Source: Planctomycetes bacterium GWF2_41_51
Lineage (GTDB): Bacteria > Planctomycetota > Phycisphaerae > Sedimentisphaerales > UBA12454
Assembly (NCBI GenBank): GCA_001825665.1
Contig: MHXZ01000031.1
Location: 1-36,853, forward strand
DNA: 36,853 nucleotides
Direction of reading: 5' to 3'
The position numbers and the translations under genes are program-made. The stretch's first letter is position 1, and each line of letters opens with the position of its first letter. The notes below the pieces were generated by a model, which made no database searches, was not told where the DNA came from, and was given only the letters and a program-made list of their open reading frames with translations. Positions 19,737-36,548 of the stretch are shown here, piece by piece.

Positions 19737-19789
19737 AAGGAAATGACGAACCAATTGCCAATAAAGGACTTACGGAAAATACAAATGGC

Positions 19790-19812: not shown

Positions 19813-19964
19813 ACCTTTGCAAAATGCCCCCCAAAACCCCGCTTGCAATCCAGCGGAAAATCAAAGCATAGACCCCCTGCTTAACTCACTATATTCAATT
19901 TGGCCAAACTTACCGCAACATATCAAAGAAGCCATAAAATCATTAATCAATACGCATACCGGAA

Positions 19965-21496: not shown

Positions 21497-21537
21497 GCCA
21501 GTGAAAAATAATGGCTGATTATAGACAATGAAGGATT

Positions 21538-21738: not shown

Positions 21739-21787
21739 TAATACGTTTTGTAACCCCCCCTTAAAATCAAAATTAGTATCATTATAT

Positions 21788-22100: not shown

Positions 22101-22114
22101 TTTAACCCTTTCAA

Positions 22115-23851
22115 CTAAACTATTTTTTCGAGTTCCTTTAATGCTGCATTGACTTCCTGTCCTTTGGCCGATATTATTTTCAGCAGTTCCGCTGGCGGCG
22201 GTGGTGGCGGCGGCGGAGCGATATTTGGATTGACCGCTTTAAGGTCATATACAGCATTTTCAATCTCTTCGGCTTTGGCCGCCAATTCTCTTGCCTCTTT
22301 TGTCAAATTTTTAAACTGCTGTTCGGCTTCCTCAATATCTGTTCGCGGAGCAAATTTGTCTTTCTTCAACGCCTGAATTTTTTCTTTCCATTGTGCTGCC
22401 TGCTGCTGCAATTCATGTGCTTTTTTCTTCAGCGGTTCGGCCTTTTCCTTCGCTTCTTTACTCAACTTTACAATATCAATAGTCCAGCTATATTTTGAAT
22501 CTTCCCGCTTCGGTAGTAACTTGAAAAATTCTTCAAAGTGTTCTGTTGCAAGCGGAATCTTCTTGCGAATTTTCAAATGCGAAAGGTCATAATACCAAAT
22601 TTTCTTTGTCTTTTTGCCCTTTGTGAAAAATAGCAAATCAGTTTTGACACCCGCACCGGCAGCCGTAAACACTCCGCCCGGAAGACTGACTATACACCAC
22701 AAATCACATTCATTAAGCAGTTTTCGTTTTGTCTGAACAAACGCCGTTTCGTTCGTCCTGAAAAGCAAACCTTCATCAAGCACCATTCCGCATCGCCCGC
22801 CATCAGCCAAACTGTTTATGATATGCTGCAAGAAAAGTACCTGCGTCGAGCCGGTCTTATAATCGAACCTTGTTTGCGCGTCCGCGCCTTCCTTGCCTCC
22901 AAATGGCGGATTGGTTAATATTACATCAAACGCATTCGGCACATTTTGAAATAATCCGCTATACGTTTCAGCGTTCGTCAGCGTATTACCATGCCAGATA
23001 TTAGGTTGGTCGATTCCGTGCAAAATAAGATTAGCAAGCGCAATCGGATATATAAGATTTTCCTTTTCCCTGCCGAAAAACGTCTTATGCTTTAATGTAT
23101 CCAAATCAACAGCGGATTTAATTTTTTCATTACTTCTTCCCACTATATATTCATAGCTCTGCGCAAGAAAGCCGCCCGTTCCGCATCCGGGGTCATAAAT
23201 AGTATCGCCTACTTTGGGGTCAATAACTTTAACCATTGCACGGATAACTTCACGCGGCGTAAAGAATTGCCCGCCATCATTTCCCTTTTCACCCATTTTC
23301 AAAAGCAGACCTTCGTAAACCTGCGAAAGCGGGAAGACGTGCGTTTTATCGACGCCCTCGGCGGTTATTTCATTAACCTTGTCCAGCACATCACAAAAAT
23401 TGCGTTCTGTATCAACCCTAACTTTTTCTACCCCCGAAAGTATTTCGCTGATAACTTTTTGCCTCGGCGTTGCATTTGGTTTGTTTTCAAGACCTTTCAG
23501 ATACGGCAAAAGCTCTGCATTTACAAAGCGAAAAAAATCGCCAAGTTTGCCTTCCTGTAATTCCTTTCGCTTCGCACCGTCAGGCGAAGCCCAGTCCCGC
23601 CAGCGATACGGAGCTTCAAAAGAAGGCTTGAATCTTGACTTTACCGCTTTTGCTTCCTGTTCTTCTATAAATTCTTTTTCGTCAAGAATGCGTAAAAATA
23701 AAATCCATGTTAATTCAGGCACATACTGCATCGCGCCAGCGCAATTGCTACGGCGCATAATATCGCATATCGATTTTATTGCTGAATTTACAGACTGCTG
23801 ACCGTTAAGTTTTTTACCATTACCATTTGTTGTTTTAGTTTTTTTTGCCAT
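22115..23851 (-). CDS. hsdM: Type I restriction-modification DNA methyltransferase (M subunit)
   Basis: 578 aa, N6-adenine methyltransferase. An HsdM_N-type helical domain (about 20-160) is followed by GGQFFTPREV (193-202), the SAM motif DPGCGTGGF (220-228) and the catalytic NPPF (314-317). The C-terminal region (about 435-540) is a long charged coiled coil rich in Lys, Glu and Gln, followed by eight consecutive prolines and a short helix. It joins with HsdS to methylate one adenine per half-site, and with HsdR to restrict unmodified DNA. It is the fifth gene of a minus-strand operon (hsdR, nuclease-like gene, hsdS, membrane gene, hsdM), 36 bases after the membrane gene. The ribosome binding site is weak. 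All catalytic motifs are intact. Confidence 0.95.
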   Translation of the reverse strand: MAKKTKTTNGNGKKLNGQQSVNSAIKSICDIMRRSNCAGAMQYVPELTWILFLRILDEKEFIEEQEAKAVKSRFKPSFEAPYRWRDWASPDGAKRKELQEGKLGDFFRFVNAELLPYLKGLENKPNATPRQKVISEILSGVEKVRVDTERNFCDVLDKVNEITAEGVDKTHVFPLSQVYEGLLLKMGEKGNDGGQFFTPREVIRAMVKVIDPKVGDTIYDPGCGTGGFLAQSYEYIVGRSNEKIKSAVDLDTLKHKTFFGREKENLIYPIALANLILHGIDQPNIWHGNTLTNAETYSGLFQNVPNAFDVILTNPPFGGKEGADAQTRFDYKTGSTQVLFLQHIINSLADGGRCGMVLDEGLLFRTNETAFVQTKRKLLNECDLWCIVSLPGGVFTAAGAGVKTDLLFFTKGKKTKKIWYYDLSHLKIRKKIPLATEHFEEFFKLLPKREDSKYSWTIDIVKLSKEAKEKAEPLKKKAHELQQQAAQWKEKIQALKKDKFAPRTDIEEAEQQFKNLTKEARELAAKAEEIENAVYDLKAVNPNIAPPPPPPPPAELLKIISAKGQEVNAALKELEKIV

Positions 23852-23887
23852 ATAATTTTAATTAATATTACCTACAAAGAAGTTATT

Positions 23888-24532
23888 TTAATTGCCACAA
23901 ATTTGATTTTGTAAACAATTTCTCATTTTTTCTATATATAAAATCAATTTAGTTCGTGAATCTATATGATGAGTTATTAAACGCTCGATGTGTCCATCAG
24001 GGAATATCTTTCCCTTTTCCTGTGCTTGCCCTATTTTAATTAATGAATCTTCGCCATTTTGGTAATTTATGAATTCGTTTATTACTTCACGAAGTTCGTT
24101 ATAATGACTCGGTTCAATAAGTATTGCTTTTTGAATCAGCATATCACGAGCCGCTATAAGTTTTTCTTGAAAATCCCATAAATTAGTACTGTTTCCATCA
24201 TCCCAAAGTTTATCCATCGCACTTTTAAGCTGACATAAGTTCAACCATAATTCATTATAAAGCTCAAATTGTTTTTCAGAGTAAAAACTATGTTTAAGTT
24301 TTGCTTTCTCAACTTCAATTTCTACCTTTCCGTTCAATTTTGTTAATTCGGTATCGGTCTCTTTGCGAAGTGTATCTTTATATTTTTCTAATTCCCTGCC
24401 ATACTCGTGTTTAACCGATTCTGTTATGCGTACAATAAACCATTTTTTTACAGTAAAACCAAGTATTGTTAACAGAGAAACACTACTAATAGTTGTTAAT
24501 CCGAACAGTTTTAACCATTCCATCCATCTCAT
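23888..24532 (-). CDS. Membrane-anchored coiled-coil protein embedded in the RM operon
   Basis: 214 aa from the ATG at 24532, one base after the hsdS stop. GAGGGGG lies inside the end of hsdS, so translation is coupled. An N-terminal membrane helix (about 8-26: LFGLTTISSVSLLTILGF) is followed by a basic patch and a long coiled coil (VKHEYGRELEKYKDTLRKET onward). After it comes a helical domain with FYSEKQFELYNELWLNLCQL, a motif seen in uncharacterised proteins often found near defence genes. No enzyme motif. It could tether the RM complex to the membrane, or be a separate effector. Its position between hsdS and hsdM indicates co-expression. Function unknown. Confidence 0.7.
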   Translation of the reverse strand: MRWMEWLKLFGLTTISSVSLLTILGFTVKKWFIVRITESVKHEYGRELEKYKDTLRKETDTELTKLNGKVEIEVEKAKLKHSFYSEKQFELYNELWLNLCQLKSAMDKLWDDGNSTNLWDFQEKLIAARDMLIQKAILIEPSHYNELREVINEFINYQNGEDSLIKIGQAQEKGKIFPDGHIERLITHHIDSRTKLILYIEKMRNCLQNQICGN

Positions 24533-24533
24533 T

Positions 24534-25778
24534 TTAATCCCCCTCAAATGCTTTTTGTAGTAACGATGCAGGCAATTTATTTATTGCCTCTAATTCTTCT
24601 TCGCACTGTTTTAAAACCTTATCCGCTGCATCTAATTGCTTTGATAATTTTTCGACTATTTGTTTTTGCTCGGCTAATGGGGGCAGAGCCAGCTTAATTT
24701 GCTTTACGATTGTTATGCTCAATCCACTACGGTGATTGTCTCCGGTAATATTGCGAATTTGTTGATATATAGATGTTAGAACATAGTATAAATATTCTGA
24801 TACCAGTTTTTCTTTATCAATAGGATACATTGCCAAAAGTGATTGATTGCAAGCGGCTTCGGTTCTTAACAAAGCAACAGTACCGCGTGTTTTCCCTTGA
24901 CCATTTAGTGCTATAAGAACGGAATTAACAGGTAAGTATTTTGCGTTTGAATTATTCAGTCCTTTTTCAGTGATTCTATTGGGACAATCAAATATTTCTT
25001 TTTGATGAATATCTCCCGACACAAGCCATTTGATATTACCATTATCATAATATTCACGAATTGATGAATTTGGTGTTCCACCAGTCATCATCTCGCACAC
25101 ATCACCAAGTGTTACATATTTCCAGCCAGTCGGCAAAATTTCCATTTGCCGAAAAACATTATTAAGCAAAGACTCTCTTAATTTTTTTACGGCTTGTAAC
25201 TTTTCTTCCGCTGATTTTTTTGCCTTTTCAACAAGTTCAAGCTGTTTATGTAATATCTCAACTATCCGCTTTTGCTCTGGTAATGGTGGGAGAGGGATTA
25301 TTAGATTTTCAAGAAAATCTTTCGGCACTCTTTGCTGACCAACCGCACCAGTAAAAGACTCTGTCGCTTTGGATAAAACCTTTTCCTGCCGTATAAAAGA
25401 ATGTACCCACATAGCCAAAACATTATTCAAGGGTCTAATGACGTGAAATTCTGTCGTTCCAAAACCGATGCCATTAATTAGGTTTTCGGCTATTGCGTGC
25501 TTGCCATTTTGCATACAGGGTGTGATTTTGGCAAATAACACATCGCCTTCCATAAAAAAAGTGTAACCTTTTTTTACTTTTTTAAAAGGAACAGTCAAAG
25601 GATTTTCTATTGCGCCTTTAGCCGCACACACTGCGGGCATAGGAACAAACGTGGTTAAATTATCATCTCCGTAGTTTAGGTTTTTAGGTCTTTGCGGGTT
25701 TATGATTGCAATTTCTTTCAACCTTACATTCTTCCAAGTATAAGGAATTTTAACGTCGTTAGTTTGAAGCTTTATCAT
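24534..25778 (-). CDS. hsdS: Type I restriction-modification specificity subunit (S)
   Basis: 414 aa with two target-recognition domains, each followed by a conserved spacer helix: IIPLPPLPEQKRIVEILHKQ (about 165-185), then KLALPPLAEQKQIVEKLSKQ (about 370-390). The second domain starts with LPTGWKYVTLGDVCEMMTGG. This two-half layout reads a bipartite DNA target. It overlaps the upstream nuclease-like gene by 20 bases and is followed one base later by the membrane gene. Length is normal and both halves look complete, so the system should be active. The target sequence cannot be read from the protein. Confidence 0.93.
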   Translation of the reverse strand: MIKLQTNDVKIPYTWKNVRLKEIAIINPQRPKNLNYGDDNLTTFVPMPAVCAAKGAIENPLTVPFKKVKKGYTFFMEGDVLFAKITPCMQNGKHAIAENLINGIGFGTTEFHVIRPLNNVLAMWVHSFIRQEKVLSKATESFTGAVGQQRVPKDFLENLIIPLPPLPEQKRIVEILHKQLELVEKAKKSAEEKLQAVKKLRESLLNNVFRQMEILPTGWKYVTLGDVCEMMTGGTPNSSIREYYDNGNIKWLVSGDIHQKEIFDCPNRITEKGLNNSNAKYLPVNSVLIALNGQGKTRGTVALLRTEAACNQSLLAMYPIDKEKLVSEYLYYVLTSIYQQIRNITGDNHRSGLSITIVKQIKLALPPLAEQKQIVEKLSKQLDAADKVLKQCEEELEAINKLPASLLQKAFEGD

Positions 25779-26655
25779 CCTGCTGTCTTTTATCTTTCAT
25801 TATTTTCTTTTTATTTTCGTAGCTCTCTTTCATAGCTTTATCCTCATTCGTTGGCGGAATTCCATATAAAAGAACAAAACCTAATTTCGTTTTTACTTTA
25901 AGATTGTCTAAAGTACTTTCCCAATCGGATTCTGTATAAAAGCGTTCAGTTTCATAGACTACGAATATAATGTTCTCGTATTCGGTACATTGATAGCCAC
26001 TAATATCAGTAAGAATTCCGTCTAATATTACTTTAGCTTTTTCTCTGGTATCCAAATATTTATATTCAATAAGGGTCTTTAGTGTTAGACTATAGGTATC
26101 CGGTTCAAAATTTTTAATTGGGGTACTTATACTACACCAACGATGAATATCAGGAAAATATACTTGTAATACCGGCTCAATCCTGTTGTGAATGTCATTC
26201 TCTTTGCAAGGCAACCAGGCAAAGATTTCACGATTCGTAACGTACGTTTGACATCTTTTGATAACTGCTTTTAATTCTATAATATTCCTGTTATTTTCAT
26301 TTTCATTATTAGGTATATAAAGTGTTTTAAGTATTTTTATATATTGGTAAATTTTATCTCCCCATACTAAATACGGTTCTTCAGGCCCCATTTTGGTATC
26401 TAACGGGTTTTTTTTGTATTCTTCATAATCATTTAGAACTTGTTTAAGTAAAAAATTATGGTTATTACTTTCAAGTAACGATATAAGACTTGCCCAAGTA
26501 AGTTGAAAATACCTTTCAGCCATAACCTTATCGGTTTCATCGGGGGTATCATAATATTGATAGCTCCATCTATCTCCATAATTGATTGCATTTGTCAAAT
26601 AACCGTCTATTTCCTTTAATAAATCTTTATTTATGTCTCGCATTCCAGAACTCAT
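25759..26655 (-). CDS. Putative PD-(D/E)xK nuclease embedded in the type I RM operon
   Basis: 298 aa. The N-terminal half (about 1-130) is helical. The C-terminal half looks like a restriction-endonuclease fold of DpnII/MboI or similar type: helix with E160 (NRIEPVLQVYFPDI), then F183-E-P-D186, and I196-E197-Y-K199 as the PD-x(10)-ExK core. After it come a helix and strand (ILTDISGYQC and NIIFVVYET). D186, E197 and K199 are the predicted catalytic residues. A very basic tail closes the protein. It starts with an ATGA overlap with the hsdR stop and overlaps hsdS by 20 bases, so it is translated with them. It is not a standard HsdR, M or S subunit. It may be a second nuclease arm or an abortive effector. 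The family is my inference from motifs. Confidence 0.65.
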   Translation of the reverse strand: MSSGMRDINKDLLKEIDGYLTNAINYGDRWSYQYYDTPDETDKVMAERYFQLTWASLISLLESNNHNFLLKQVLNDYEEYKKNPLDTKMGPEEPYLVWGDKIYQYIKILKTLYIPNNENENNRNIIELKAVIKRCQTYVTNREIFAWLPCKENDIHNRIEPVLQVYFPDIHRWCSISTPIKNFEPDTYSLTLKTLIEYKYLDTREKAKVILDGILTDISGYQCTEYENIIFVVYETERFYTESDWESTLDNLKVKTKLGFVLLYGIPPTNEDKAMKESYENKKKIMKDKRQQDDKASN

Positions 26656-29024
26656 ACTGCGAAAATCCTCTCTTTGGTTTGATGCAGAACTTGAGCCGGT
26701 TCGCCAATAATCTTTAATGCTTCAAGACCACCGGCAAGGCGCACTTCTGGAATACGGAATATATTTGGATTTTCAAGTCCTTCCGTTCCGGCTATCGCAA
26801 ACTGATTTGTCATCGCTTTTAGCGTATTGCACGTATTGGCTGGTAAGGCTGAAAGCCATTTATTATTTTTATATACAAAGGCAGAAGCTCTATCGGTTCG
26901 CGTTCTGGGAACAAGGCCATAGCCTAAATACGCAAGGACATCATAGAGGTCATAGCTTATCATATCTTCAAGCCTTTGGACAACCGTTGGCGAATAACCG
27001 CTTTTTACAAGGTCGTCTATCAAAGCGCGTCTGTCTTCGGGTTCTATCCAGCAGTAGATAAATTTATCTAATGACGGTAATTCTTTTACAAGTCTTTGCG
27101 ATAATTTTTCCTTATACTCTTCAACGGTTACAGGCATCGCCTTGCCGTCAACTTCCGTTATGACATATCGCCCTTGGTCGGAAACGTGGACATCGAAACC
27201 ATCAACTATAATTGACGGCGGCTGTTCTGTTCCGCCGCCACCGCCTCCGCTTTCGGTTGTTTGTCTGCGGGTTACGAAATTTTCGCCGAAAAGTTTTGAA
27301 GCATCGGTATAGTCATAAACCGTAAACATCAATTTGCCGGTAGGTTCGTGGATTCTTGTGCCTCTTCCAACCATTTGGTAAAACGAAATTGGCGAACGAA
27401 CGTATTTGAAAAATACAATATTTCGGACACAAGGCACATCTACACCGGTTGTAAGTAAATCGACCGTAGTAGCTACAAAATGGCTTTGGTTTGACGCTTT
27501 AAATTCCGGTAAAAAATCATTGCCATTACTTTCAGCGGTACACTTGAAAGCATAATGGTCTTTTCGTTCTTTGTCGTTATCTCTGCACCATCGGGCATAG
27601 AGATTATTCATTTCTGCGGCAACATCGTCAGCGTGCCGGTCTCTTGCGCAGTATATGATTGTTTTCTGTTCGGGATTGCCGTTGGTAATCAGATATTTAA
27701 ACAAATCGGCGCACATCGCAATAACCCTATCGGGTAACAATATGCGGTCTTCATATTCGGTTTTCTCATATCGGTCTTTGAGTTCTTCAGCGGTTACAGG
27801 TTTGCCGGTTATTGCATCGCGCGGATTACGTTTAAGCAGTTCTTCAATGGTTATGCCGGTTTCATCGAGATTAACCCTGCCTTTTTGTAAATCACAAGCT
27901 GCTAAATAGCCGTCCTCAATACCCTGCATAAGGTCATATTCATAAACCGGCTCGCCAAAATGATTGACATTATCCGCCGTAATTTTTCTGTCTTGTTCGG
28001 CCTCTTGTGTGTTTGCAGTAAGCCGAAGTTGTCTTGGTGTTGCGGTTAATCCAATTTGAATAGCCTTATCGTTTCTGGTGAGAACGGAAGACCATTTACC
28101 CCATGCGCTGCGGTGGCATTCATCTATCACAATATGGCTGAAATAATTTTCGGGATAATGTGTAACTAAAAAATTCGCGTCTGCATCGTCATTGTCAACA
28201 TTAAGGGTTTGATAGGTTGCTACGTGGATACGCGCATTTCGGGCGTGATTCTTGCCGTCTGAATCGAGATATACAGGGGCGGCATCAGAGCCGAAAATAT
28301 TTTGAAATGCGCCAAGTCCCTGTTCCCGAAGTTCTGTCCTATCGCAAACGAATAATGCACGTTTCAATTGTCCAGCATCGGCAATTCTTTTTAAAAGATT
28401 AACTGCGATAAATGTTTTACCTGAACCAGTAGCTAAAGAAAGCAATGCCCTCGTTCCGCCTTGTGCAATTTTTTCCAATACGGCGCGAATAGCAGCATCC
28501 TGATAATAACGCCGTGTCGCTTCGCCGCCGGTATATTTTACCAATAACGGCTTGGCAAGTTCAGAATCCAGCCTGATTCCTTTTGCATCTTCGTAGAATT
28601 GCCTTAATCGCTGCGGTGTCGGAAATTCTGATAATTGTTTGGGCTGTGAAGTAATTCCGGTTTTATTATTAAACTCGACAAATAAATGACCATTTGAAGA
28701 AAATACAAACGGGATATTCAATCTTTTACAGGTTGCGTATGCTTTGGCTTGTTCGAGACCATGAGCGGGAGGAAGATTTTCCTTTTTCGCTTCAATCAGG
28801 GCCACTGCAACCGGCTGCGTATCTGGATTGACTTTGACGCGCAAAAGATAGTCGACACGACCTCTACCCTTGCGTCTTGGCTTCAAATTTCCATCGAATT
28901 GTATGGGCGGAGCGGATTCCTCACGTCTGATTAAATCTTCCGTCCAGCCTTTTGCGTGTATAGCAGGGTCGATAAGCTTAGCGCGTGTATCAGCTTCGTT
29001 GTAATAATCCCTATTTATTGGCAT
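26652..29024 (-). CDS. hsdR: Type I restriction enzyme endonuclease/translocase subunit (R)
   Basis: 790 aa. The N-terminal nuclease domain shows RVDYLL (D58) and IEAKKEN (E78, K80) as PD-(D/E)xK core. The SF2 helicase motor has ATGSGKT (198-204), DECH (301-304) and an LTATPRQ motif. Further on it has DLLTTGVDVP and VGRGTRIHEP, with an EcoEI-like C-terminal region from about 620. A glycine run (GGGGGG, about 600) marks the linker. HsdR translocates DNA and cuts when the HsdS/HsdM core finds an unmethylated target. It is the first gene of the operon, with a near-consensus promoter and a palindrome upstream. The next gene overlaps its stop by ATGA. All motifs look intact. Confidence 0.95.
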   Translation of the reverse strand: MPINRDYYNEADTRAKLIDPAIHAKGWTEDLIRREESAPPIQFDGNLKPRRKGRGRVDYLLRVKVNPDTQPVAVALIEAKKENLPPAHGLEQAKAYATCKRLNIPFVFSSNGHLFVEFNNKTGITSQPKQLSEFPTPQRLRQFYEDAKGIRLDSELAKPLLVKYTGGEATRRYYQDAAIRAVLEKIAQGGTRALLSLATGSGKTFIAVNLLKRIADAGQLKRALFVCDRTELREQGLGAFQNIFGSDAAPVYLDSDGKNHARNARIHVATYQTLNVDNDDADANFLVTHYPENYFSHIVIDECHRSAWGKWSSVLTRNDKAIQIGLTATPRQLRLTANTQEAEQDRKITADNVNHFGEPVYEYDLMQGIEDGYLAACDLQKGRVNLDETGITIEELLKRNPRDAITGKPVTAEELKDRYEKTEYEDRILLPDRVIAMCADLFKYLITNGNPEQKTIIYCARDRHADDVAAEMNNLYARWCRDNDKERKDHYAFKCTAESNGNDFLPEFKASNQSHFVATTVDLLTTGVDVPCVRNIVFFKYVRSPISFYQMVGRGTRIHEPTGKLMFTVYDYTDASKLFGENFVTRRQTTESGGGGGGTEQPPSIIVDGFDVHVSDQGRYVITEVDGKAMPVTVEEYKEKLSQRLVKELPSLDKFIYCWIEPEDRRALIDDLVKSGYSPTVVQRLEDMISYDLYDVLAYLGYGLVPRTRTDRASAFVYKNNKWLSALPANTCNTLKAMTNQFAIAGTEGLENPNIFRIPEVRLAGGLEALKIIGEPAQVLHQTKERIFAV

Positions 29025-29045
29025 TCCTGCGAAAAACCTCCGAGA

Positions 29046-29098
29046 CTCTCATCTATGAGAGAAACAAAGATTTTACTATGTAAGACATTGATTGTCAA
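29046..29098 (-). promoter_or_regulatory. hsdR operon promoter with palindrome at the start site
   Basis: On the minus strand TTGACA (29098-29093), a 17-base spacer and TAAAAT (29075-29070) form a strong promoter. CTCTCAT, CT, ATGAGAG (29046-29061) is a perfect 7-bp inverted repeat just downstream of the -10 box, where a repressor would block initiation or early elongation. The start codon is at 29024. The XRE protein at 33178 is one candidate binder (inference). Confidence 0.75.
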
Positions 29099-29204
29099 CA
29101 ATTTACGACATTTTGCCTTGATTTAGAATGCAAATTTCCGTAATTGCCTGTAAATTCAGAACATAAGACGTACATAACACTATCATAAATACTCTACAAA
29201 GTTT

Positions 29205-29909
29205 TTATAGGCGTTTTTTTCTCAGCATTACCGCACCAAAGCCAAACAATAAAAGTGTTGCCGGTTCGGGGATAAGGATGGTTGCGGTTGGGTCATTATA
29301 CATTATGTTTACTGACCATGTCGTTCCATTTAGCCACTGACCGCTTAGTATGCCCGTTCCCAAAATACGATTGCCATTGAGGGTAAGCCCGCTCCCGCAA
29401 TTGAAATTTTTGCCGTGAAAAGTAGTGGTGCTGAAGTCGTAAAAGTTAGAGAGGAGGCCATTGAAAGTTCCGCCAAAGAAATTCATATTGCTGTAATCAT
29501 TAAGATAGAGGTTGCCGCTAATGTTCCCTCCAGAAATATTAGTGGTGCTGTAACCAAAGGTGTCGATTCTGGCGACTGTACCGCTGGATAAATTGATGGT
29601 GCTGCTGTCGTCGGCAGCGAGAATACTCACTGACCCACTGGAGATATTCACAGTACTGTAGTTATAGGAGTTTATGCGGACTGCGATTCCGCCTGACATA
29701 TTTGCAGTACTGTAATTATAACATCGGAGGTAAGAAATATGACCATTGGGAACAATGAAGACTCGGCTTGTATTATAAAGATACCCATTGATTGTTTGCC
29801 AATTAAATGTAAGCTGTTCATTTCCCCGAAGAGTAAAATCAGCTTTTGTGCTATCCGTTACAATCAAAAATACTAACAGTAAACAATTTGTCATTTTTCC
29901 TGTTTTCAT
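29205..29909 (-). CDS. PEP-CTERM protein with short beta-solenoid-like repeats
   Basis: 234 aa with a signal peptide (about 1-23) and a C-terminal IPEPATLLLFGFGAVML plus RKKRL sorting signal. The middle contains about five imperfect repeats of roughly 20 residues around YSTxNISGG or SSTxNLSSG (NYSTANMSGG; NYSTVNISSG; DSSTINLSSG; GYSTTNISGG; DYSNMNFFGG), typical of a right-handed beta-helix or pentapeptide-like solenoid. AAGGAAG lies just before the start. Upstream there is a perfect TATAAT on the minus strand (29949-29944), but TTGACG is only 12 bases before it, so an activator may be needed. It is probably a surface-exposed adhesin-like or matrix protein. It is unusual as cargo next to an RM system. 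Confidence 0.75.
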   Translation of the reverse strand: MKTGKMTNCLLLVFLIVTDSTKADFTLRGNEQLTFNWQTINGYLYNTSRVFIVPNGHISYLRCYNYSTANMSGGIAVRINSYNYSTVNISSGSVSILAADDSSTINLSSGTVARIDTFGYSTTNISGGNISGNLYLNDYSNMNFFGGTFNGLLSNFYDFSTTTFHGKNFNCGSGLTLNGNRILGTGILSGQWLNGTTWSVNIMYNDPTATILIPEPATLLLFGFGAVMLRKKRL

Positions 29910-30022
29910 TTTCTTCCTTCTCCGTTAATTTAGTAATTTGCACATTATAGACGTTTTTTGCCGTCAAGCGAGGGCTTTTTACAAAGCATTCTTGCCAGTA
30001 TTTAAGCTATCTAATATTTTCA

Positions 30023-30415
30023 CTATTCGATTGAATCAGGCAGAAGGTCGCATAGGTTAGCGAGTCGGATTATTTTTTTGCAAATTTCACACTTATAGAA
30101 ATAAAAAGTGTTGGTTTTTTCTGGTTTCATTTTTTGTTTACACGCAGGACAGCAAGGAGGGTTTAGCGATTTAAACTCCTCCCATTTTAAAAGGTCAACA
30201 AAAAGTTTATTGAAATTCTTACATCTACGGTTTTTACATACTTTTGACACCCACCAGCGGAATTCGGGTGAGGGGTTTTCGTCTCTAAACACTATAGCAG
30301 GAGCACCCTTGCAGTCCATTCTGACTCCCACTTTAGGATTGTGGTATAGCTTTACCTCGTGGTTACATTTTTTGCATAGAATAACGTTCGCATCTAAAAA
30401 ATCTTTATCACACAT
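30023..30415 (-). CDS. Small multi-zinc-ribbon protein
   Basis: 130 aa from the ATG at 30415, with AAGGAG six bases upstream. Cysteine pairs appear in order as CKKC, CKNRRC, CCPAC and CEIC, enough for two or more zinc ribbons. Between them are a basic region and a WWVSK segment. No enzyme motif, and no family name I can give. An upstream extension of the frame to 30538 is rejected because it runs through the structured leader. The gene is controlled by that leader (30592-30453) and by a promoter at 30631-30659. It may bind nucleic acid or act as a regulator of the element. This is inference. Confidence 0.65.
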   Translation of the reverse strand: MCDKDFLDANVILCKKCNHEVKLYHNPKVGVRMDCKGAPAIVFRDENPSPEFRWWVSKVCKNRRCKNFNKLFVDLLKWEEFKSLNPPCCPACKQKMKPEKTNTFYFYKCEICKKIIRLANLCDLLPDSIE

Positions 30416-30452
30416 TTTTGTCTCCTTGCGAATTGGCTTTACGGCGTGCAAT

Positions 30453-30592
30453 AAAAAAAAGGACACCGCAAAACGTGCTCGTCTCAGGCTCGCCAGAGCC
30501 AACGAAAGACACGCAAGCGATGTCCCATATAGGGACACCGACCTTGATGCGTTCTTTCGTTTTTGAACTGGCGATTCGAGACGAAACGCTAA
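30453..30592 (-). ncRNA. Structured leader RNA with competing terminator hairpin (copy 2)
   Basis: Read on the minus strand: GTCTC (30582) pairs with GAGAC (30485); TCGCCAG (30574) with CTGGCGA (30496). AACGAAAGA (30561) pairs with TCTTTCGTT (30509), extended by ACGCA/TGCGT past one bulged base. GGTGTCCC (30539) pairs with GGGACATC (30526). The strand GGACATCGC (30525-30517) can instead pair over nine bases with GCGGTGTCC (30469-30461), which is followed by eight T (30460-30453): a terminator that competes with the hairpin. It shares with 20546-20731 the opening CGTTTC, the AATCGC / GCGAGCCT internal-loop strands, the CGGTG hairpin start and the GCGGxG-plus-U-run end. The ribosome binding site and ATG of the zinc-ribbon gene follow. 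Confidence 0.55.
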
Positions 30593-30630
30593 AAAAATCA
30601 GTATTTTACGTTATTAAATTGTTGCGATTT

Positions 30631-30659
30631 AAAATACACCATTTATGGTTTTTACGCAA
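30631..30659 (-). promoter_or_regulatory. Candidate promoter for the zinc-ribbon leader
   Basis: On the minus strand TTGCGT (30659-30654), a 17-base spacer and TATTTT (30636-30631) lie about 40 bases before the structured leader. The spacer holds a near-palindrome ACCATTTATGGT (30638-30649; arms perfect, centre not), a possible regulator site. Confidence 0.45.
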
Positions 30660-30726
30660 GTTTATTTGCATTGACATTGCATTAAAAATAAGCAAAAATA
30701 TATTATATTTTTAAAGTAAATTATTT

Positions 30727-30834
30727 GTCGGGGACGACCGATTTGCAAACGGTCAAGCGGCCTGAACTACGGTAAGGTCTTTCACTTATCCAACCTGCCG
30801 TTGTTCAGACCGACCCGAAAAAGGATAAGTGAAA
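30727..30834 (+). ncRNA. Pseudoknot leader that can hide the ribosome binding site
   Basis: P1: TCGGG (30728) with CCCGA (30814). P2: GACCG (30736) with CGGTC (30750). P3: CGG-C-CTGAAC-T-ACGG (30758-30772) with CCGT-T-GTTCAG-A-CCG (30798-30812), 13 pairs with two mismatches. The P3 loop contains TTTCACTTATCC (30780-30791), an exact complement of GGATAAGTGAAA (30823-30834), which includes the AAGGA ribosome binding site and touches the ATG at 30835. That pairing crosses P3, so it is a pseudoknot. This is what a translational riboswitch or protein-binding leader looks like. The ligand is unknown and the class is not one I recognise. Confidence 0.55.
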
Positions 30835-31719
30835 ATGGAAGAAAACACGAAATATCGTACAGTTTACGACATTTATGAGTGTGCCGCAAAAATCATTAAA
30901 CATTTCGGCACTGACAATCAAGCTGACGATATAAAATTTTTATTGGTAATATTGGATGTTAAAGAAAAATTAGAAGACCTATTAAAAAAGATTGTTCCGC
31001 AAAAAACAGTATCACAATTGCTTAACATATATTGTAAGTCTCTTGTAAAGAAGAAAATATTCAGCAATGATACTGACATTGCGGTACTGCACGTTAAAAA
31101 CTGGAATAAGGCTCGCAGGATGGCACTTTCTATTTTTAAATACGCTGCCGACAATAATATAAATTTACCGTCTGTCTCCGTTGGTAGCGGCTCACCTTAT
31201 GATTTTGAAAAATTACAAAATTGGGCTGTGGAATCCATTGTTAAAATATCGCAAATCGTAAAAATATGTATTTACAACATTAAACAAATCGAACCTGCTG
31301 AAGCACTAAAAACAGTTGAAGCGGATTTGTTAAAACACGCAAACGGCGCATCTTCACAGGAAAATTTGACCGATACAGAGCAAGGCAGCAACAGCAATCA
31401 GCGAAAAATAAAAGAACCTTCAAGAGAAGCTAATGAGGCTTATAACCTTTATTATACGCTGAGCAGAACTCAGAATGACATAGCTGATATAATGTCCAAA
31501 CAATATAACCGCAAATTCACACAATCGCAGATTTCCCGCTATATAAGACAGGTTAAAGAATGGCGAAAAGAAAACAATCTGCTGTTTGAAACGGTTACTG
31601 TAAAACCGCAAATAATACCAACCGACCCTGCTATCATAGAATCAGGGAAACGGACCGACGGTAAAATCACAGGCGACCCCCGAAATAAAGCCAAATCTGA
31701 ACAAGATGACAACGAATAA
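30835..31719 (+). CDS. Unknown protein with C-terminal helix-turn-helix, under the pseudoknot leader
   Basis: 294 aa from the ATG at 30835; a GTG two codons earlier is also possible. Mostly helical. The first 190 residues match no family I know. Residues about 200-245 (REANEAYNLYYTLSRTQNDI, then ADIMSKQYNRKFTQSQISRY, then IRQVKEW) form a sigma-70-region-4-like or resolvase-like HTH ending in IRQVKEWRKEN, common in planctomycete regulators. The last 45 residues are charged and low-complexity. Its start is buried in the leader's pseudoknot, so synthesis is probably tightly limited. It may be a regulator or replication-initiator-like protein of the element, made only under a particular signal. 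Function unknown. Confidence 0.6.
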   Translation: MEENTKYRTVYDIYECAAKIIKHFGTDNQADDIKFLLVILDVKEKLEDLLKKIVPQKTVSQLLNIYCKSLVKKKIFSNDTDIAVLHVKNWNKARRMALSIFKYAADNNINLPSVSVGSGSPYDFEKLQNWAVESIVKISQIVKICIYNIKQIEPAEALKTVEADLLKHANGASSQENLTDTEQGSNSNQRKIKEPSREANEAYNLYYTLSRTQNDIADIMSKQYNRKFTQSQISRYIRQVKEWRKENNLLFETVTVKPQIIPTDPAIIESGKRTDGKITGDPRNKAKSEQDDNE

Positions 31720-31760
31720 CTAACGGCTCAAACCTGATTTTTTATCATTTTTATAATTTT

Positions 31761-31834
31761 TATGCACGCTGATTCTGTATTATAAGCCAGTTATACGCAA
31801 TTATGCAACATTATGCACTTTTTGAATTGCATAA
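31761..31834. repeat. Cluster of TTATGCA repeats before the excisionase-like genes
   Basis: TTATGCA occurs at 31801-31807 and 31811-31817 and inverted (TGCATAA) at 31828-31834; TATGCAC also occurs at 31761-31767. The cluster ends 48 bases before the first HTH gene and lies in a 163-base gene-free gap. It resembles binding sites for a small recombination-directionality or replication protein. Confidence 0.45.
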
Positions 31835-31882
31835 TTCATAAGTAATGAATGGGGGGCGGGATTGATATTAGGATAGTATGAT

Positions 31883-32071
31883 ATGGGCAATTTATTAACA
31901 GCGGAAGATATGGCTATCTGGTTAAAAGTGAAACCAGAAACAATCCTTAAATGGGCAAGGACAGGCAGAATCCCTTTTTTAAGATTCTCTGGGAAAGTGG
32001 TGCGTTTTGATGTCGTAGCTGTTCAACAGGCACTTGCCGACCTTGCAGCCAAAGGGGGAGACAATGAATAA
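31883..32071 (+). CDS. Excisionase-like HTH_17 protein (first of a pair)
   Basis: 62 aa. LLTAEDMAIWLKVKPETILK, then WARTGRIPFLRFSGKVVRFD, is a MerR/excisionase-type winged HTH in which the WARTGRIP turn and the RF wing are standard. Such proteins bend DNA at attachment sites as recombination directionality factors, or regulate the element. AGGA lies eight bases upstream. It overlaps the next gene by eight bases, and TTATGCA repeats lie upstream. Confidence 0.75.
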   Translation: MGNLLTAEDMAIWLKVKPETILKWARTGRIPFLRFSGKVVRFDVVAVQQALADLAAKGGDNE

Positions 32072-32300
32072 AGATATCAGCACAATTCAGCCGGAACTTT
32101 TGACCATCTCCGATGTTTGTAAAATGCTGAATATATCGAGGGCGGAGTTTTACAAACTGAATGCCAGCGGAAAATTTGCACCGCTGAAAGTCGATCTGTG
32201 TCGAAAGATTTTGTACAACAGAACAGAAATTGAAAACTGGATACGTTCTGGCTGTGTTCACCGCAAACAATGGCAAATATTGAAAGGAAAATACAAATGA
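32064..32300 (+). CDS. Excisionase/AlpA-like HTH protein (second of a pair)
   Basis: 78 aa from the ATG at 32064, preceded by GGGGGAG. LLTISDVCKMLNISRAEFYK, then LNASGKFAPLKVD and RKILYNRTEIENWI, is an AlpA/Xis-type HTH. The start lies inside the end of the previous gene and the stop overlaps the next start as ATGA, so the three genes are translationally linked. One of the two HTH proteins is the likely excisionase for the integrase at 33694, and the other may be a regulator. Confidence 0.75.
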   Translation: MNKDISTIQPELLTISDVCKMLNISRAEFYKLNASGKFAPLKVDLCRKILYNRTEIENWIRSGCVHRKQWQILKGKYK

Positions 32301-33118
32301 AAGTTACCTCAAAAAAATTGGCCACCGCTCCACTTGCGTCAGAGCCGACGGCCAATATCAAACGATTACAGGAAAAATCTTATTTCAAAATTTGTTTACT
32401 GTCAACTAAAACCGAACAGCTTTTAGGCAATTTATTATTTGTTCTCCAATGGCCGTATATTAGCGAGACGGATAACGATACACAAAGGATAATGCTGAAA
32501 GAACGAATTCTTGCGGTAAAACAGGCAAACATCGGAGATATCAAGATAGCCGCATCAGAAAAAATTATAGAGCGGTTCTTAGCCGGAGATAAAGTGCTTA
32601 AGCCAAGGCACACAAGAGATATAGGGCGGTTTATTTCGCTCGTAAAGGTTTTTGCATTGTTGAATCTGTGGTTTCGGGAGAAGTCTGGTTCAGCTATAGT
32701 AGCTAATGATAACGATATTGAAGAAGCATTCAAAGTATGGGATATAATCGCTGATAGTCAGGAGTTAAATTTACCTCCGTATATTTATCAGTTATACAAA
32801 GAAGTGATTTTGCCTGCTTATGCAGAGATGAATGACGGCAGAAACGCAACCATTCAGGACGTAACCGGAAAACTCGGATTAAGCAGGCAGGCAATAATTC
32901 AAAAGCATTATCAGGTCTATGGACGGTATATGCCTGACTGGCAGTTGAGACAGCAGATTATTCCGATGCTGGAGACATCTGGTTTGATCACACAAGAGCC
33001 AGACCCAAATGATAAACGTAAAATACTAACCTACCCCACCACGTTACTCACTATATCACAACAGCACCCAAATACTAATTTTCAAAACAATAGTGAGTTA
33101 GGTGGTATGGTAAAATAA
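32297..33118 (+). CDS. Winged-helix protein, possibly derived from a replication helicase/primase C-terminus
   Basis: 273 aa from the ATG at 32297, with AAAGGA upstream and an ATGA overlap with the previous gene. The middle (RHTRDIGRFISLVKVFALLN, then a DNDIEEAFKVWDIIA segment) resembles the helical region that follows the ATPase domain in element-encoded primase/helicase proteins. Residues about 195-250 (TIQDVTGKLGLSRQAIIQKH; MLETSGLITQEPDPNDKRKI) form a MarR-like winged helix. No Walker or primase motif is present, so it could be a truncated replication protein or an independent regulator. It sits in the xis-to-int operon. Confidence 0.55.
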   Translation: MKVTSKKLATAPLASEPTANIKRLQEKSYFKICLLSTKTEQLLGNLLFVLQWPYISETDNDTQRIMLKERILAVKQANIGDIKIAASEKIIERFLAGDKVLKPRHTRDIGRFISLVKVFALLNLWFREKSGSAIVANDNDIEEAFKVWDIIADSQELNLPPYIYQLYKEVILPAYAEMNDGRNATIQDVTGKLGLSRQAIIQKHYQVYGRYMPDWQLRQQIIPMLETSGLITQEPDPNDKRKILTYPTTLLTISQQHPNTNFQNNSELGGMVK

Positions 33119-33177
33119 TGTGAAAAGTAACTACTTTTCAGTTGCAATGCAGCGGTTAGTTGTTTATAATTTGTAAT

Positions 33178-33393
33178 ATGGCAAAAGATATTGAACAAAA
33201 ATTACGTGAAGCAATAATGAAATCGGAATTGAGCAGATACCGGATTAGCAAGCTGTCAGGTGTAGGTGAAGCTCAGTTATCATTGTTTGTCAATGGCAAG
33301 CGAACCTTAACGCTTCCAGTGGCGGCAAAATTAGCAAATGTACTGGGATTAGAGCTTATCCCAAAAAAAGACAAGAAGGAAAATAAAATATGA
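33178..33393 (+). CDS. XRE-family repressor-like protein
   Basis: 71 aa from the ATG at 33178. A Cro/C1-type HTH covers about 17-55 (YRISKLSGVGEAQLSLFVNG, then KRTLTLPVAAKLANVLGLEL). The basic tail KKDKKENKI closes it. The size fits a small C-protein-like or Cro-like regulator of the element. Its stop overlaps the next start (ATGA). It is a plausible regulator of the integrase region or of the RM promoter palindrome at 29046-29061 (inference). Confidence 0.8.
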   Translation: MAKDIEQKLREAIMKSELSRYRISKLSGVGEAQLSLFVNGKRTLTLPVAAKLANVLGLELIPKKDKKENKI

Positions 33394-33674
33394 AAACAAA
33401 AAAGATTGAATATTTTGTACAAAAGTTATCGGTGATTCAGGAAAAACCATATAATGAACAAAAAGAAGAACTTGCCGCTTTGCAACAAGAAGTAAAACTG
33501 GCAATACCCTCAGATAAATCTGAGTTATACTTTAAAATTCAATCAATACAAAACTTCCTGAATATGAATACAATGTTGAATGCCTGCATTTCAGCTAAGT
33601 GGTCTTGTTTTTGGGCTACAATAGCGGCCATAGCAGCTTTTGTCAGCGTTATTTTAATGTTGTTTGCTGTATAA
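33390..33674 (+). CDS. Small protein with coiled coil and C-terminal membrane helix
   Basis: 94 aa. The first 60 residues are charged and helical. The last 25 (WSCFWATIAAIAAFVSVILM and on) form one membrane helix. It overlaps the XRE gene by ATGA and ends 19 bases before the integrase start. A tail-anchored partner encoded directly with an XRE gene is a common arrangement in mobile elements, but I recognise no family. Confidence 0.55.
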   Translation: MKTKKIEYFVQKLSVIQEKPYNEQKEELAALQQEVKLAIPSDKSELYFKIQSIQNFLNMNTMLNACISAKWSCFWATIAAIAAFVSVILMLFAV

Positions 33675-33693
33675 AAGAAATGAAGGGTAAAAA

Positions 33694-35058
33694 ATGAACA
33701 TTTACAAGCAAAATTACAAAGCTAAGGACGGCAAAACAGCGAAAACCTCAAAGTTTTATATTGAGTTTTTAGACCATAACAAGTTAAGGCACAAATTACC
33801 TGCATTTGCGGATAAGCGGATATCAGAAGCCTTTGGCCGGAACATCGAAAGCCTTGTAAACTGCCGTATATCAGGGCTTGAACACGATGTAAAATTAAAT
33901 CAATGGCTTGAAACTCTGCCGTCAAATATCCTGAAAAAGTTTACATCTTGGGGATTGATAGACGGACAAAGAGCAGAGATAACAAAGCCGCTGTCAGAGC
34001 ATATAAAAGACTATTCAGAGATTTTAAAAGTTAAAGGCTTTTCTGCTGATTATGTAAGACGTATGAAAAACAGGCTTGAAAAGATTGTAAATGATTGTCG
34101 ATTTTTCTATTTCCGTGATATTACAATATCGACGGTTGAACTTTATAAAGGCAAGTTGAAAAACGAAAAAAATACTGATACCACTATCGGCCATTACATT
34201 GATTGCCTGAAAACCTTTTTGAACTGGGCTGAAACAGACGGCAGAATATTACATAATCCGATTGCAAAGATAGAAAAACCCAGCAGAGATTCAAAACCGA
34301 AAGGAATTTTAACCCCTGAACAGTTTGTTAGCTTAATTAAGAACACTTTAGAGAAAAATACCATTATTAACAAAACCACTGGACAGGAAAGAGCAGTTTT
34401 ATATACACTGGCAGGAACAACAGGCATAAGACGAAATGAACTGCTTAACTTGACTTGGGACGATGTAAATCTCTCAGATGATAATGCGTTTGTTCGTGTC
34501 AGGGCTTGCATAGCCAAAAACGGAAAAGAAGCTATGCAACCTATACCAAAAATTACGATTAATCTTTTGATGGCATTGAAACGCAACAGAAAGCCGCAGG
34601 ACGCGGACAGGGTATTTGACGCCTTCGGTATGTCAATTAACACCGCCAGACTTATCAGAAACGATTTAAAAGCCGCTGAAATAGACCTGATAGGCAAAGA
34701 CGGGAATAAGATTTGTTTTCATAGCTTACGAAATTCCTATATTTCTTGGCTTGCCAACAGCCAGACCCCTGCCAAAGTCATACAAAAACTTGCCAGACAT
34801 TCAGACCCCCGCTTAACGTTCAATACTTATGCAAGGGTATTGCCGGAAGCGGAGCAAAAAGCTATTAGTTTTCTGCCCGATTTTGGCAATGTTTTAATAG
34901 GAAAAAGTTTGTGTGCCAGTTTGTGTAATGACGGTAAAAAAGTGGGTACTTCCGTGAACAACCAAAGACACGAAAAATGCTATAATAGCTTAAAAATGCC
35001 ATTTGAAGCGGTTATATCAATACCCTCAAGGGGAGTCGAACCCCTGCTGCCGGCTTGA
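33694..35058 (+). CDS. Tyrosine integrase whose 3' end lies inside the tRNA-Glu gene
   Basis: 454 aa, tyrosine recombinase. An N-terminal SAM-like core-binding domain (about 90-190) is followed by the catalytic domain with R246 (TTGIRRNELLNLTW), Lys near 273 (KNGKEAM), H343-x-x-R346 (CFHSLRNSY), H369 (LARHSDPRLT) and nucleophile Y379 (NTYARVLPEAEQ); the set is complete. The last dozen codons (IPSRGVEPLLPA, stop) are the antisense of the tRNA-Glu gene, so the present C-terminus was created by integration. On the excised circle the frame would continue into the tail at 19737-19993. An arm-like repeat lies within the coding sequence at 34906-34928. A ribosome binding site AAGGG precedes the ATG. 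Confidence 0.92.
   Translation: MNIYKQNYKAKDGKTAKTSKFYIEFLDHNKLRHKLPAFADKRISEAFGRNIESLVNCRISGLEHDVKLNQWLETLPSNILKKFTSWGLIDGQRAEITKPLSEHIKDYSEILKVKGFSADYVRRMKNRLEKIVNDCRFFYFRDITISTVELYKGKLKNEKNTDTTIGHYIDCLKTFLNWAETDGRILHNPIAKIEKPSRDSKPKGILTPEQFVSLIKNTLEKNTIINKTTGQERAVLYTLAGTTGIRRNELLNLTWDDVNLSDDNAFVRVRACIAKNGKEAMQPIPKITINLLMALKRNRKPQDADRVFDAFGMSINTARLIRNDLKAAEIDLIGKDGNKICFHSLRNSYISWLANSQTPAKVIQKLARHSDPRLTFNTYARVLPEAEQKAISFLPDFGNVLIGKSLCASLCNDGKKVGTSVNNQRHEKCYNSLKMPFEAVISIPSRGVEPLLPA
34906..34928. repeat. Arm-like repeat of segment B, right copy
   Basis: Identical over 23 bases to 19790-19812 (two AGTTTGTGT units) and starting 115 bases before the core. It lies inside the integrase gene and encodes SLCASLC in the same frame as the other copy. 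Confidence 0.7.
35021..35047. repeat. Attachment core, copy 3 (inside tRNA-Glu)
   Basis: These are the 27 bases shared with 19710-19736. They cover the acceptor 3' strand and T arm of the tRNA-Glu gene, so integration rebuilds the tRNA on the right side of the element. Confidence 0.9.
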
Positions 35059-35205: not shown

Positions 35206-35279
35206 TGGCGACGGGTGGATTCGAACCGCCGACCCTGGGCTTATGAATCCCATGCTCTAACCAACTGAGCTACGTCGCC
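35206..35279 (-). tRNA. tRNA-Met (anticodon CAT), elongator type
   Basis: 74 bases: acceptor GGCGACG/CGTCGCC with discriminator A, D arm GCTC..GAGC, anticodon loop TTCATAA (CAT), and T arm GGCGG-TTCGAAT-CCACC. Two oddities are an A-G opposition at the base of the anticodon loop stem and a C-A opposition in the T stem. The G1-C72 pair rules out an initiator. A tRNA-Ile read through lysidine modification is a less likely alternative. It lies 113 bases upstream of tRNA-Glu in the same direction, and they are probably cotranscribed. A small TTTGCC/GGCAAA hairpin follows its 3' end. Confidence 0.85.
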
Positions 35280-35426: not shown

Positions 35427-36548
35427 ATGCTACAAAACATTATAAAAAAACGAAAAACCCGTTCTGATAAATTTCCACTAACTTTACATCCAACAGGCCA
35501 ATTTTGCAAGAAAATTAAGGGTAAGCTTTATTACTTTGGAAAAGACAAAAAAATTGCTCTACAAAGATATTTAGAACAGGCGGCTTTTCTTCATACAGGC
35601 AAGACTATACTAATTGAAAAAGAGGATTCTTTGGCGTTAAAAACTCTTTGCAATTTATATCTTGAATACCAAGAGAAAAAAGTCCAAGCTAATAATCTCA
35701 GTGCAGGTCATTTTCAGGATCAGGTTAAAAGCCTCCGTAAGTTTACAACTTTTTTAGGGCAATATTGTGAAATTGAACAGATAGGAACATTAGATTTGCA
35801 AAATTATAAACAAAAGCTCTTGAAATGTTTTTCTGCACAAAGAGTTAATTTGAATATAGGAATTATGAAGGCAATGTTTCATTGGGCCAAGAAAAATGAT
35901 GTCTTAAAAAACATACCAAATATTGATGCAATAAATAAGGTTAAGATTATAAAAAAAGAAAGAAACGTTTTTATTCCTGAGCATATTCTTAAGTTGCTGC
36001 AATTTTCAGATAATCAAATGAGGGCTATGATTTTATTAGGGTTAAATTGTGGTTTTGGATGTACAGATTGTGCTGAGTTAAAATGGAATGATTTAGATAT
36101 TGATAATAGTCGCGTTAATCTGCCACGCAGCAAAACTGGTATTGGCAGGAATCTTTTGTTGTGGCAGGATACTGTGGATACAATTGCGAAATTACCTAAA
36201 CGTGGTGAGTTAGTTTTTTATACGCGTAATGGAAATCCATGGGTCCGTACAATTAAAAACATAAAAGCAGATGGAACTGTGAAATACGTAAACGATAATG
36301 CAATTAGTAAAAGCTTTTCCAAACTTCTTAAAAAAACAGGCATAAAGGCCGAAAAAGGTGTTGGATTTTATACTTTACGCAGAACCTCGGCAACTATGGC
36401 AGCACGCAGTGGCGATCCTTTTGCAGTTCAGAAACTTCTTGGCCATGCCGATTTGAAGATGGCAACAACTTATGTGCAGGATGTTTCAGAGCAGACGGAC
36501 CAAGTTGTAAATAATATGCGTAAACTTATAATCCCAGATGCTTCTTAA
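35427..36548 (+). CDS. Planctomycete-type tyrosine recombinase with non-canonical active site
   Basis: 373 aa. The N-terminus (FPLTLHPTGQFCKKIKGKLY, then YFGKDKKIALQRYL) and the central INIGIMKAMFHWA-like core-binding domain match a planctomycete family of phage-integrase-like proteins that I know. In the catalytic domain LGLNCGFGCTDCAELKWNDL (about 205-224) stands where TGxRxxEL is expected, so no Arg aligns with catalytic Arg I. RSKTGIGRNLLLW supplies the Lys, Y315-T-L-R318-R has Tyr in place of His, and GH340 and nucleophile Y349 are present. AAAGG lies eight bases before the ATG, with a near-consensus promoter upstream. It may serve the tRNA-3'-end-like fragment 150 bases downstream. It is complete, and activity is uncertain. 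Confidence 0.88.
   Translation: MLQNIIKKRKTRSDKFPLTLHPTGQFCKKIKGKLYYFGKDKKIALQRYLEQAAFLHTGKTILIEKEDSLALKTLCNLYLEYQEKKVQANNLSAGHFQDQVKSLRKFTTFLGQYCEIEQIGTLDLQNYKQKLLKCFSAQRVNLNIGIMKAMFHWAKKNDVLKNIPNIDAINKVKIIKKERNVFIPEHILKLLQFSDNQMRAMILLGLNCGFGCTDCAELKWNDLDIDNSRVNLPRSKTGIGRNLLLWQDTVDTIAKLPKRGELVFYTRNGNPWVRTIKNIKADGTVKYVNDNAISKSFSKLLKKTGIKAEKGVGFYTLRRTSATMAARSGDPFAVQKLLGHADLKMATTYVQDVSEQTDQVVNNMRKLIIPDAS

Follow-up and report, generated by a model that had tools for sequence, protein, structure and literature searches.

The DNA analyzed here, a stretch of 36,853 nucleotides from contig MHXZ01000031.1 of Planctomycetes bacterium GWF2_41_51 (hereafter the window), carries a 15.3-kb integrative element at a tRNA-Glu gene (19710–35047), and the apparent integration/excision operon of this element opens with a structured leader RNA upstream of a gene for a helix-turn-helix (HTH) protein. 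The leader is probably a cis-acting translational lid over this first gene, in which a hairpin loop forms a pseudoknot with the ribosome-binding site and thereby covers it; translational repression is what both its anatomy and its covariation among relatives point to. The family to which the leader belongs is absent from Rfam release 15, and very probably represents a real, previously uncatalogued control switch.

The minimum free energy (MFE) structure of positions 30727–30840 was found to be a nested fold (−36.7 kcal/mol, z −2.59; 3 of 200 shuffled sequences were equally stable) in which stem P1 encloses the hairpins P2 and P3, creating a three-way junction. The P3 loop presents TTTCACTTATCC (30780–30791), the exact reverse complement of GGATAAGTGAAA at 30823–30834 (12 nt, no mismatch), with the start codon ATG (30835–30837) located directly 3′ of the latter and no further base pair possible at either end of the helix. 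An earlier reading of the window from its letters alone, here called the original prediction, had described this loop as perfectly complementary to the bases up to the ATG, and the match is indeed exact. In the fold proposed at the same time, the 13-pair imperfect stem corresponds to a P3 of 18 pairs including one wobble (counted on the MFE fold), and the two nested stems are replaced by the three-way junction. The further claim that such a 12-bp pairing exceeds chance held up as well: just three distinct inverted repeats of at least 12 nt with arms at most 150 nt apart exist in the whole window, the 12-mer occurs twice in the 4,827,106-base genome, i.e. only as the two arms of the leader, and relatives carry compensatory changes (see below). 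The energy calculated for the isolated pseudoknot duplex was −15.1 kcal/mol for 12 bp and −8.7 kcal/mol for 8 bp, and opening the top of P3 costs approximately 7 kcal/mol.

Searches for homologues of the first-gene protein gave few relatives (5 of 392 genomes of the phylum, its own included; 6 of 161 genomes of the order using a C-terminal profile; none in named genome contigs, viral contigs, plasmids and phages), and a covariance model, R1, was therefore built from the window leader alone, comprising the nested stems without the pseudoknot. R1 matched 25 of the 161 same-order genomes at E ≤ 0.5, with about two dozen matches being full-length at E < 1e-5. It yielded 34 rows, the 5 weakest of which were left out, and a second model, R2, again lacking the pseudoknot, was constructed from a MAFFT alignment of 24 members that leaves out L095 and L097–L100. 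R2 matched 9 of 392 phylum genomes (the window's included), 21 of 26 chosen genomes with at most four copies each, and 43 of 298 genomes of the class at E ≤ 1e-4. Removing L106, L107, L108 and L123 from 23 new R2 matches left 19 members, and the class search contributed another 45, excluding a 42-nt fragment (G535:C64) and the previously dropped L123. A third model, R3, was built from L101 and L103, which stem from other families of the phylum, and recovery was reciprocal: R3 found the window leader at E 1.7e-5 together with most of the other members on which it was run, and R2 found L101–L105. Independent events are fewer than rows, since L230–L232 look like copies of one element. One locus, L182 (G415:C29), holds two leader copies at 6369 and 15400, on the same strand 9 kb apart and with different genes behind them.

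The covariance models were applied within the phylum of the window; beyond it, named genomes and viral contigs were scanned with patterns. The scan of named genome contigs gave 13 matches, six of them confirmed by R2 and located on contigs of Phycisphaerales/Planctomycetota metagenome-assembled genomes; the other seven, including matches in Mycobacterium and Methanolinea, failed R2. Among viral contigs one pattern gave a single match, unconfirmed by R2, and a second pattern gave none. No Rfam family matched the leader RNA in the window, at 20 member loci or at 7 further loci, and literature searches on int-alpA RNA, Rhodopirellula-1 and mobile-element or planctomycete pseudoknots turned up no description of the leader family.

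In the 24-member alignment, 91% of the cells pair under the proposed structure, and both sides have changed in 25 of 39 pairs, a number reached by none of 500 shuffles. Pairing fell to 26–44% when the partner was slid by 1–3 columns, a control that leans towards the proposed structure because this derives from the window leader and was fitted by eye to a common P1 register. For the pseudoknot helix alone, 90% of the cells were paired and 6 of 10 pairs had changed on both sides. Conservation was highest in the junction letters and P1, with P3 and the pseudoknot being variable.

The loop pairing was further assessed for each member by comparing a generous P3-loop window to the 20 nt before the start codon and scoring the best gap-free helix (Watson-Crick pairs 1, G-U pairs 0.25, threshold at least 7), with loops swapped between members as control; the definition was kept unchanged between the R1 and R2 sets and the 45 fresh members. 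The R2-only members reached the threshold in 15 of 19 cases (swapped mean 4.2, maximum 8), and the 45 further class members, never used for modelling, in 41 (swapped mean 11.3, maximum 19 of 300). Both sets came out in favour of the original prediction, which had named as fatal to it relatives in which the loop does not keep its complementarity to the ribosome-binding site. Over all examined members, 77 of 89 scored at least 7, with helices of 7–14 bp and 59 distinct 3′ strands. AGG or GGA was present in 68 of the 77 pairing 3′ strands, and in 68 of 77 the helix ended 0–4 nt before the start codon (most 2–4 nt). The compensation can be wholesale, as seen when the 3′ strand of the window, GGATAAGTGAAA, is set beside those of L134 (AAAGGTAATC), L135 (GATAGCAGGCAAG), L226 (CGATGGACGAGTGA), L225 (CCGAAAGGAAAG) and L217 (GGATGGTGC). 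Judged from these sequence comparisons, the junction, P2, P3 and the pseudoknot exist and are selected as RNA.

For 42 placed members, the window included, the gene context was surveyed in as much as 20 kb of surrounding DNA. A gene of the AlpA/excisionase-like (alpA) type was found downstream on the same strand, within 0.65–4.4 kb, in 28 of these, and 21 have a same-strand integrase no more than 10 kb away. Flanks were limited for the 45 fresh members, of which 25 carry a downstream alpA-type gene in the orientation of the leader; none has one on the opposite strand. The first genes themselves are diverse, encoding several C-terminal HTHs, a TIR domain (L100), Schlafen AlbA_2 (L129), an RNA polymerase alpha C-terminal domain (L083) and many proteins without a family. 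Promoter-like sites often end approximately 10–24 nt upstream of the RNA, and the best score exceeded that of shuffled upstream DNA in 37 of 44 cases. Given this great variation of the first gene and the promoter-like sites upstream, the leader is the 5′ end of mobile-element operons and is not tied to one protein family.

Several observations weigh against a translational lid of this kind. P1 changes on one side only, 12 of the 89 members fall below the pairing score, and 14 of the 42 placed members have no alpA-type gene in the DNA examined. The pairing excess in the R1 set was modest (21 of 25 rows, compared to a swapped mean of 15.6 and maximum of 19; L095 with no usable tail, L097 running into N, and L098 and L099, which look unrelated, were excluded), because many R1 members share ACCTGTC/GACAGGT. 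In some of the 12 low-scoring members (L096, L122, L139 and L238) the P3 loop is lost with the tail being kept, and these may be decayed or unregulated copies. Finally, all 12 pairs and an intact top of P3 may not be able to coexist in the modelled structure, since only a single unpaired nucleotide is found on each side (C30779 and A30792), a limitation deduced from geometry.

The mechanism we propose would begin with a transcript starting just 5′ of P1, a position suggested by the promoter-like sites at 30671–30709, and folding into the P1/P2/P3 three-way junction. The P3 loop would then reach past P1 and pair with the stretch from the Shine-Dalgarno sequence to the start codon, and the closed pseudoknot would keep the 30S subunit off the gene for the HTH protein, resulting in low expression. 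Disruption of the pseudoknot would free the site, so that the first gene could be translated and the operon, probably, expressed. We infer that the pseudoknot state is the OFF state, that 30S loading is its target, and that excision and integration functions are what is gated. As first guesses, the trigger could be a factor recognizing the conserved junction, or leader–leader dimers formed via P2; the conserved junction combined with the variable remainder suggests a shared trigger acting on the junction. That the leader looks like translational control, as stated in the original prediction, is supported by the conserved and covarying pairing of loop and ribosome-binding site.

The P2 loops were surveyed in 88 rows, 85 of which yielded a P2. 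A palindrome was present in the loop of 65 of these 85 members, and was at least 4 nt long in 33 of 47 distinct loops (shuffled mean 13.8, maximum 22 of 2000) and at least 6 nt in 17 of 47 (shuffled mean 2.4, maximum 8). The palindromes, four to eight nucleotides long and set in a fixed register, differ between members (AGCU, UAAUUA, GUAC, UUGCAA, UGAUCA and others; the window has TTTGCAAA). Among the 17 distinct loops of 7 nt, the bases at positions 4 and 5 were complementary in 15 and those at positions 3 and 6 in 14, with shifted registers reaching at most 8. Because neighboring bases of a loop are unable to pair inside a single RNA molecule, kissing between molecules is the simplest structural explanation of this pattern. 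The leader might accordingly be a self-dimerizing RNA switch that kisses through P2, with dimerization setting pseudoknot closure at the ribosome site, a bold idea that we put forward tentatively and regard as fairly unlikely. The GACG loops of seven members are not self-complementary, GACG is also the commonest P2 loop of int-alpA RNA (15 of 39), positions 2 and 7 pair as well in only 6 of 17 distinct 7-nt loops, and P2 loops share ancestry, all of which argue against dimers. If P2 loops do dimerize, the leader would be a rare natural mRNA leader acting as a homodimer, and the mobile element would possess an RNA-only means of dose sensing via the number of element transcripts or copies.

Other explanations of the leader differ from the proposed lid in what would move the pseudoknot, or in whether RNA is concerned at all. 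In a riboswitch, the pseudoknot would be the expression platform and the three-way junction would bind a small molecule, which fits the strong conservation of the junction letters and P1 next to a variable P3 and pseudoknot, as well as the diversity of the regulated first genes. The riboswitch analogy of the original prediction did not gain from the searches, as no ligand class or Rfam riboswitch matched, and the mobile-element genes have no shared metabolic theme, making this reading rather improbable. Its second analogy was to antisense-regulated plasmid replication genes. Control of this kind, in which an antisense or other trans-acting RNA docks on the loop and so governs translation (as in the IncI type), can draw on the leader's big, accessible loop that matches the ribosome site, which is the usual anatomy of such targets. 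A consensus scan of the minus strand at 30400–31000, a method that can miss promoters, revealed no promoter-like site reading across the loop, however, and the genome contains no further copy of the exact 12-mer. The downstream HTH gene contains no Rep domain and is thus not recognizable as a replication initiator, and there was no PK-rep match in Rfam; we consider this kind of control very unlikely. Least credible of all is a DNA-level feature, an inverted repeat serving as operator or recombination site with an incidental RNA fold. The element genes do encode HTH proteins, and DNA inverted repeats covary too, but the covariation of P2 and P3 does not depend on the 12-nt repeat, and in most members one arm of the repeat lies in the loop of a hairpin and the other on the bases preceding the start codon. 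Furthermore, the P2 palindrome is centered half a nucleotide 3′ of the stem center in 57 of 65 cases, from which it follows that P2 is not a DNA dyad.

The int-alpA family (RF02996) was examined since homologues of the window HTH gene at L003, L004 and L009 have int-alpA upstream. At these loci the RNA lies directly in front of the homologous HTH gene and alpA genes (39.1–40.8 bits, cut-off 35.8), and at E ≤ 0.1 RF02996 matched 50 of 392 phylum genomes, of which 36 exceeded the cut-off. An exact complement of at least 5 nt to the P3 loop was found just 3′ of P1 in 50 of 62 int-alpA loci (swapped mean 6.2, maximum 13 of 300), and the same loop had a complement in the next 57 nt, Shine-Dalgarno included, in 43 of 62 (swapped mean 15.3, maximum 26); the P3 finder was crude, and the rows in which it put P3 in the wrong place (several of the 62) were kept as misses. 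By eye, the second complementary copy is often in the loop of a small Shine-Dalgarno hairpin. int-alpA RNA hence seems to follow a related logic, in which two partners compete for one loop. Several copies can lie close together on one contig (L048 on G051:C35; L050, L027 and L061 on G051:C100), with eight matches each in G051 and G089.

A single family, with the leader as a divergent int-alpA RNA, is unlikely in our view. Both RNAs share the P1/P2/P3 topology with a P3 loop complementary to the strand just 3′ of P1, a match of at least 5 nt in most of the int-alpA loci counted above. They also occupy the same genomic slot, in front of the homologous HTH gene and alpA genes at L003, L004 and L009, and in an integrase/alpA-type mobile-element setting in the window operon and 28 of the 42 placed members. 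The junction letters TAG...CGAA of L101 and L103 additionally resemble int-alpA by eye. R3, built from precisely these two most int-alpA-like members, nevertheless had no match at the RNA in any of 55 int-alpA loci, R2 gave one weak overlap (L015, E 0.006), and RF02996 was unmatched in five distant members at E ≤ 1. When the leader itself was tried as a member of RF02996 (gathering cut-off 35.8 bits), there was no match at E ≤ 5 within 30600–30900 and none in the genome at E ≤ 1. The int-alpA core UAG-P2-CGAAAA-P3-CU was not found either: the window leader has the junctions GAC and AAG and lacks the conserved CGAAAA. By analogy, the leader would work like int-alpA while probably being no int-alpA RNA itself. 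Among candidate cis-regulatory motifs, Weinberg et al. (2010, PMC2864571) list Rhodopirellula-1 for Planctomycetes and Proteobacteria, with no Rfam accession; the leader family or int-alpA may overlap with this motif.

The features of the leader and its operon are compiled below. The integrated element is delimited by two exact 27-bp copies, in direct orientation, of the 3′ end of tRNA-Glu, and its cargo includes a type I restriction-modification system (HsdM 22115–23851, HsdS 24534–25778, HsdR 26652–29024). The HTH gene that the original prediction had placed downstream of the leader was confirmed by a predicted tri-helical HTH in the product of 30835–31719, the single window protein for which a structure was predicted. 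Block means of the predicted local distance difference test (pLDDT) were 78–94 over residues 191–250; outside the HTH, pLDDT was below 50. A PDB fold search with this protein gave nothing at E ≤ 0.001, and the closest sensible solved fold to its HTH, that of KorA, was a statistically weak match. An in-frame GTG of the first gene is found at 30829, inside the pseudoknot.

Table 1. Features of the leader RNA, its operon and the ends of the integrative element (window positions).
Feature	Position	Strand	Basis
Attachment-site repeat, left element end	19710–19736	.	27-bp exact direct repeat
Sigma-70-like promoter region (TTGACA-17-AAAAAT 30671–30699; TTAAAA-16-TATATT 30682–30709)	30671–30709	+	Consensus scan
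Complete conserved pseudoknot leader RNA	30727–30834	+	MFE fold; covariance models R1, R2, R3
P1 5′ strand TCGGG, partner 30814–30818	30728–30732	+	MFE fold, alignment
P2 hairpin, stem 30736–30740/30750–30754	30736–30754	+	Covariation in 5/6 alignment pairs; self-complementary loop
P2 loop (30741–30749), contains palindrome TTTGCAAA	30742–30749	+	Loop self-complementarity
P3 imperfect hairpin 30758–30778/30793–30812, presents anti-Shine-Dalgarno loop	30758–30812	+	Both-side changes in 14/18 pairs
Pseudoknot 5′ strand, loop TTTCACTTATCC	30780–30791	+	Exact complement; covaries in relatives
P1 3′ strand CCCGA	30814–30818	+	MFE fold, alignment
Pseudoknot 3′ strand GGATAAGTGAAA, over Shine-Dalgarno bases to start codon	30823–30834	+	Exact complement; relatives
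First operon gene, 294-aa protein with C-terminal tri-helical HTH (residues 197–246)	30835–31719	+	Structure prediction; Clr5 below cut-off
AlpA/excisionase-like HTH_17 gene 1	31883–32071	+	Family match
AlpA/excisionase-like HTH_17 gene 2	32064–32300	+	Family match
282-aa protein, weak MarR-like match below cut-off	32270–33118	+	Family scan
Small repressor-like HTH protein	33160–33393	+	
94-aa open reading frame without family match, hydrophobic C-terminus	33390–33674	+	
Tyrosine integrase, 3′ end overlapping tRNA-Glu	33694–35058	+	Family match
Attachment-site repeat, 3′ end of tRNA-Glu, right element end	35021–35047	.	27-bp exact repeat with 19710–19736

Some further observations were made on the surroundings of the leader. 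The 94-aa reading frame resembles by eye the proteins encoded directly behind the leader in L088 (1558–2007) and L096 (1583–1858). A second integrase (35427–36548) adjoins tRNA-Met (35206–35279, minus strand), and is possibly the end of a neighboring element. Inverted repeats are present at 30455–30600, upstream of a minus-strand zinc-ribbon gene (e.g. CGTCTC at 30480–30485 and GAGACG at 30578–30583), a region in which the window scan reported no Rfam family.

The analysis adds an uncatalogued leader RNA family with a covarying pseudoknot, represented in 43 of 298 genomes of one bacterial class, and places it at the switch point of chromosomal integrative elements carrying cargo such as restriction systems. 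The leader family and int-alpA are mutually unrecognized by their models and share the same slot and logic, which suggests that RNA lids over the first gene are a general device by which such elements are kept quiet in the chromosome. The comparison additionally offers a cis-acting function for int-alpA, which is typed by Rfam as a small RNA gene.

Pseudoknots that act on translation are known from several other systems. In the replication genes of IncI/IncL plasmids (PK-repZ type), the pseudoknot switches translation on, and an antisense RNA counteracts it. As in these, a hairpin loop of the leader pairs just upstream of the start codon, but here the pseudoknot covers the ribosome site, and the promoter scan and 12-mer search found no antisense RNA. 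The preQ1-II and SAM-II riboswitches and ribosomal protein operators are pseudoknot leaders that sequester the ribosome-binding site; the leader covers the Shine-Dalgarno sequence in the same way, differing from them in its longer pairing and its location in mobile-element operons. The likeness to int-alpA RNA extends to the position at the head of integrase/alpA operons, the topology, and a P3 loop complementary to the strand 3′ of P1 and often to the Shine-Dalgarno sequence too. While int-alpA has a short P3, a pairing of approximately 5–7 bp and usually two complementary copies, the second of them over the Shine-Dalgarno sequence, the leader described here has a long P3 and one copy of 7–14 bp, which is the Shine-Dalgarno region itself.
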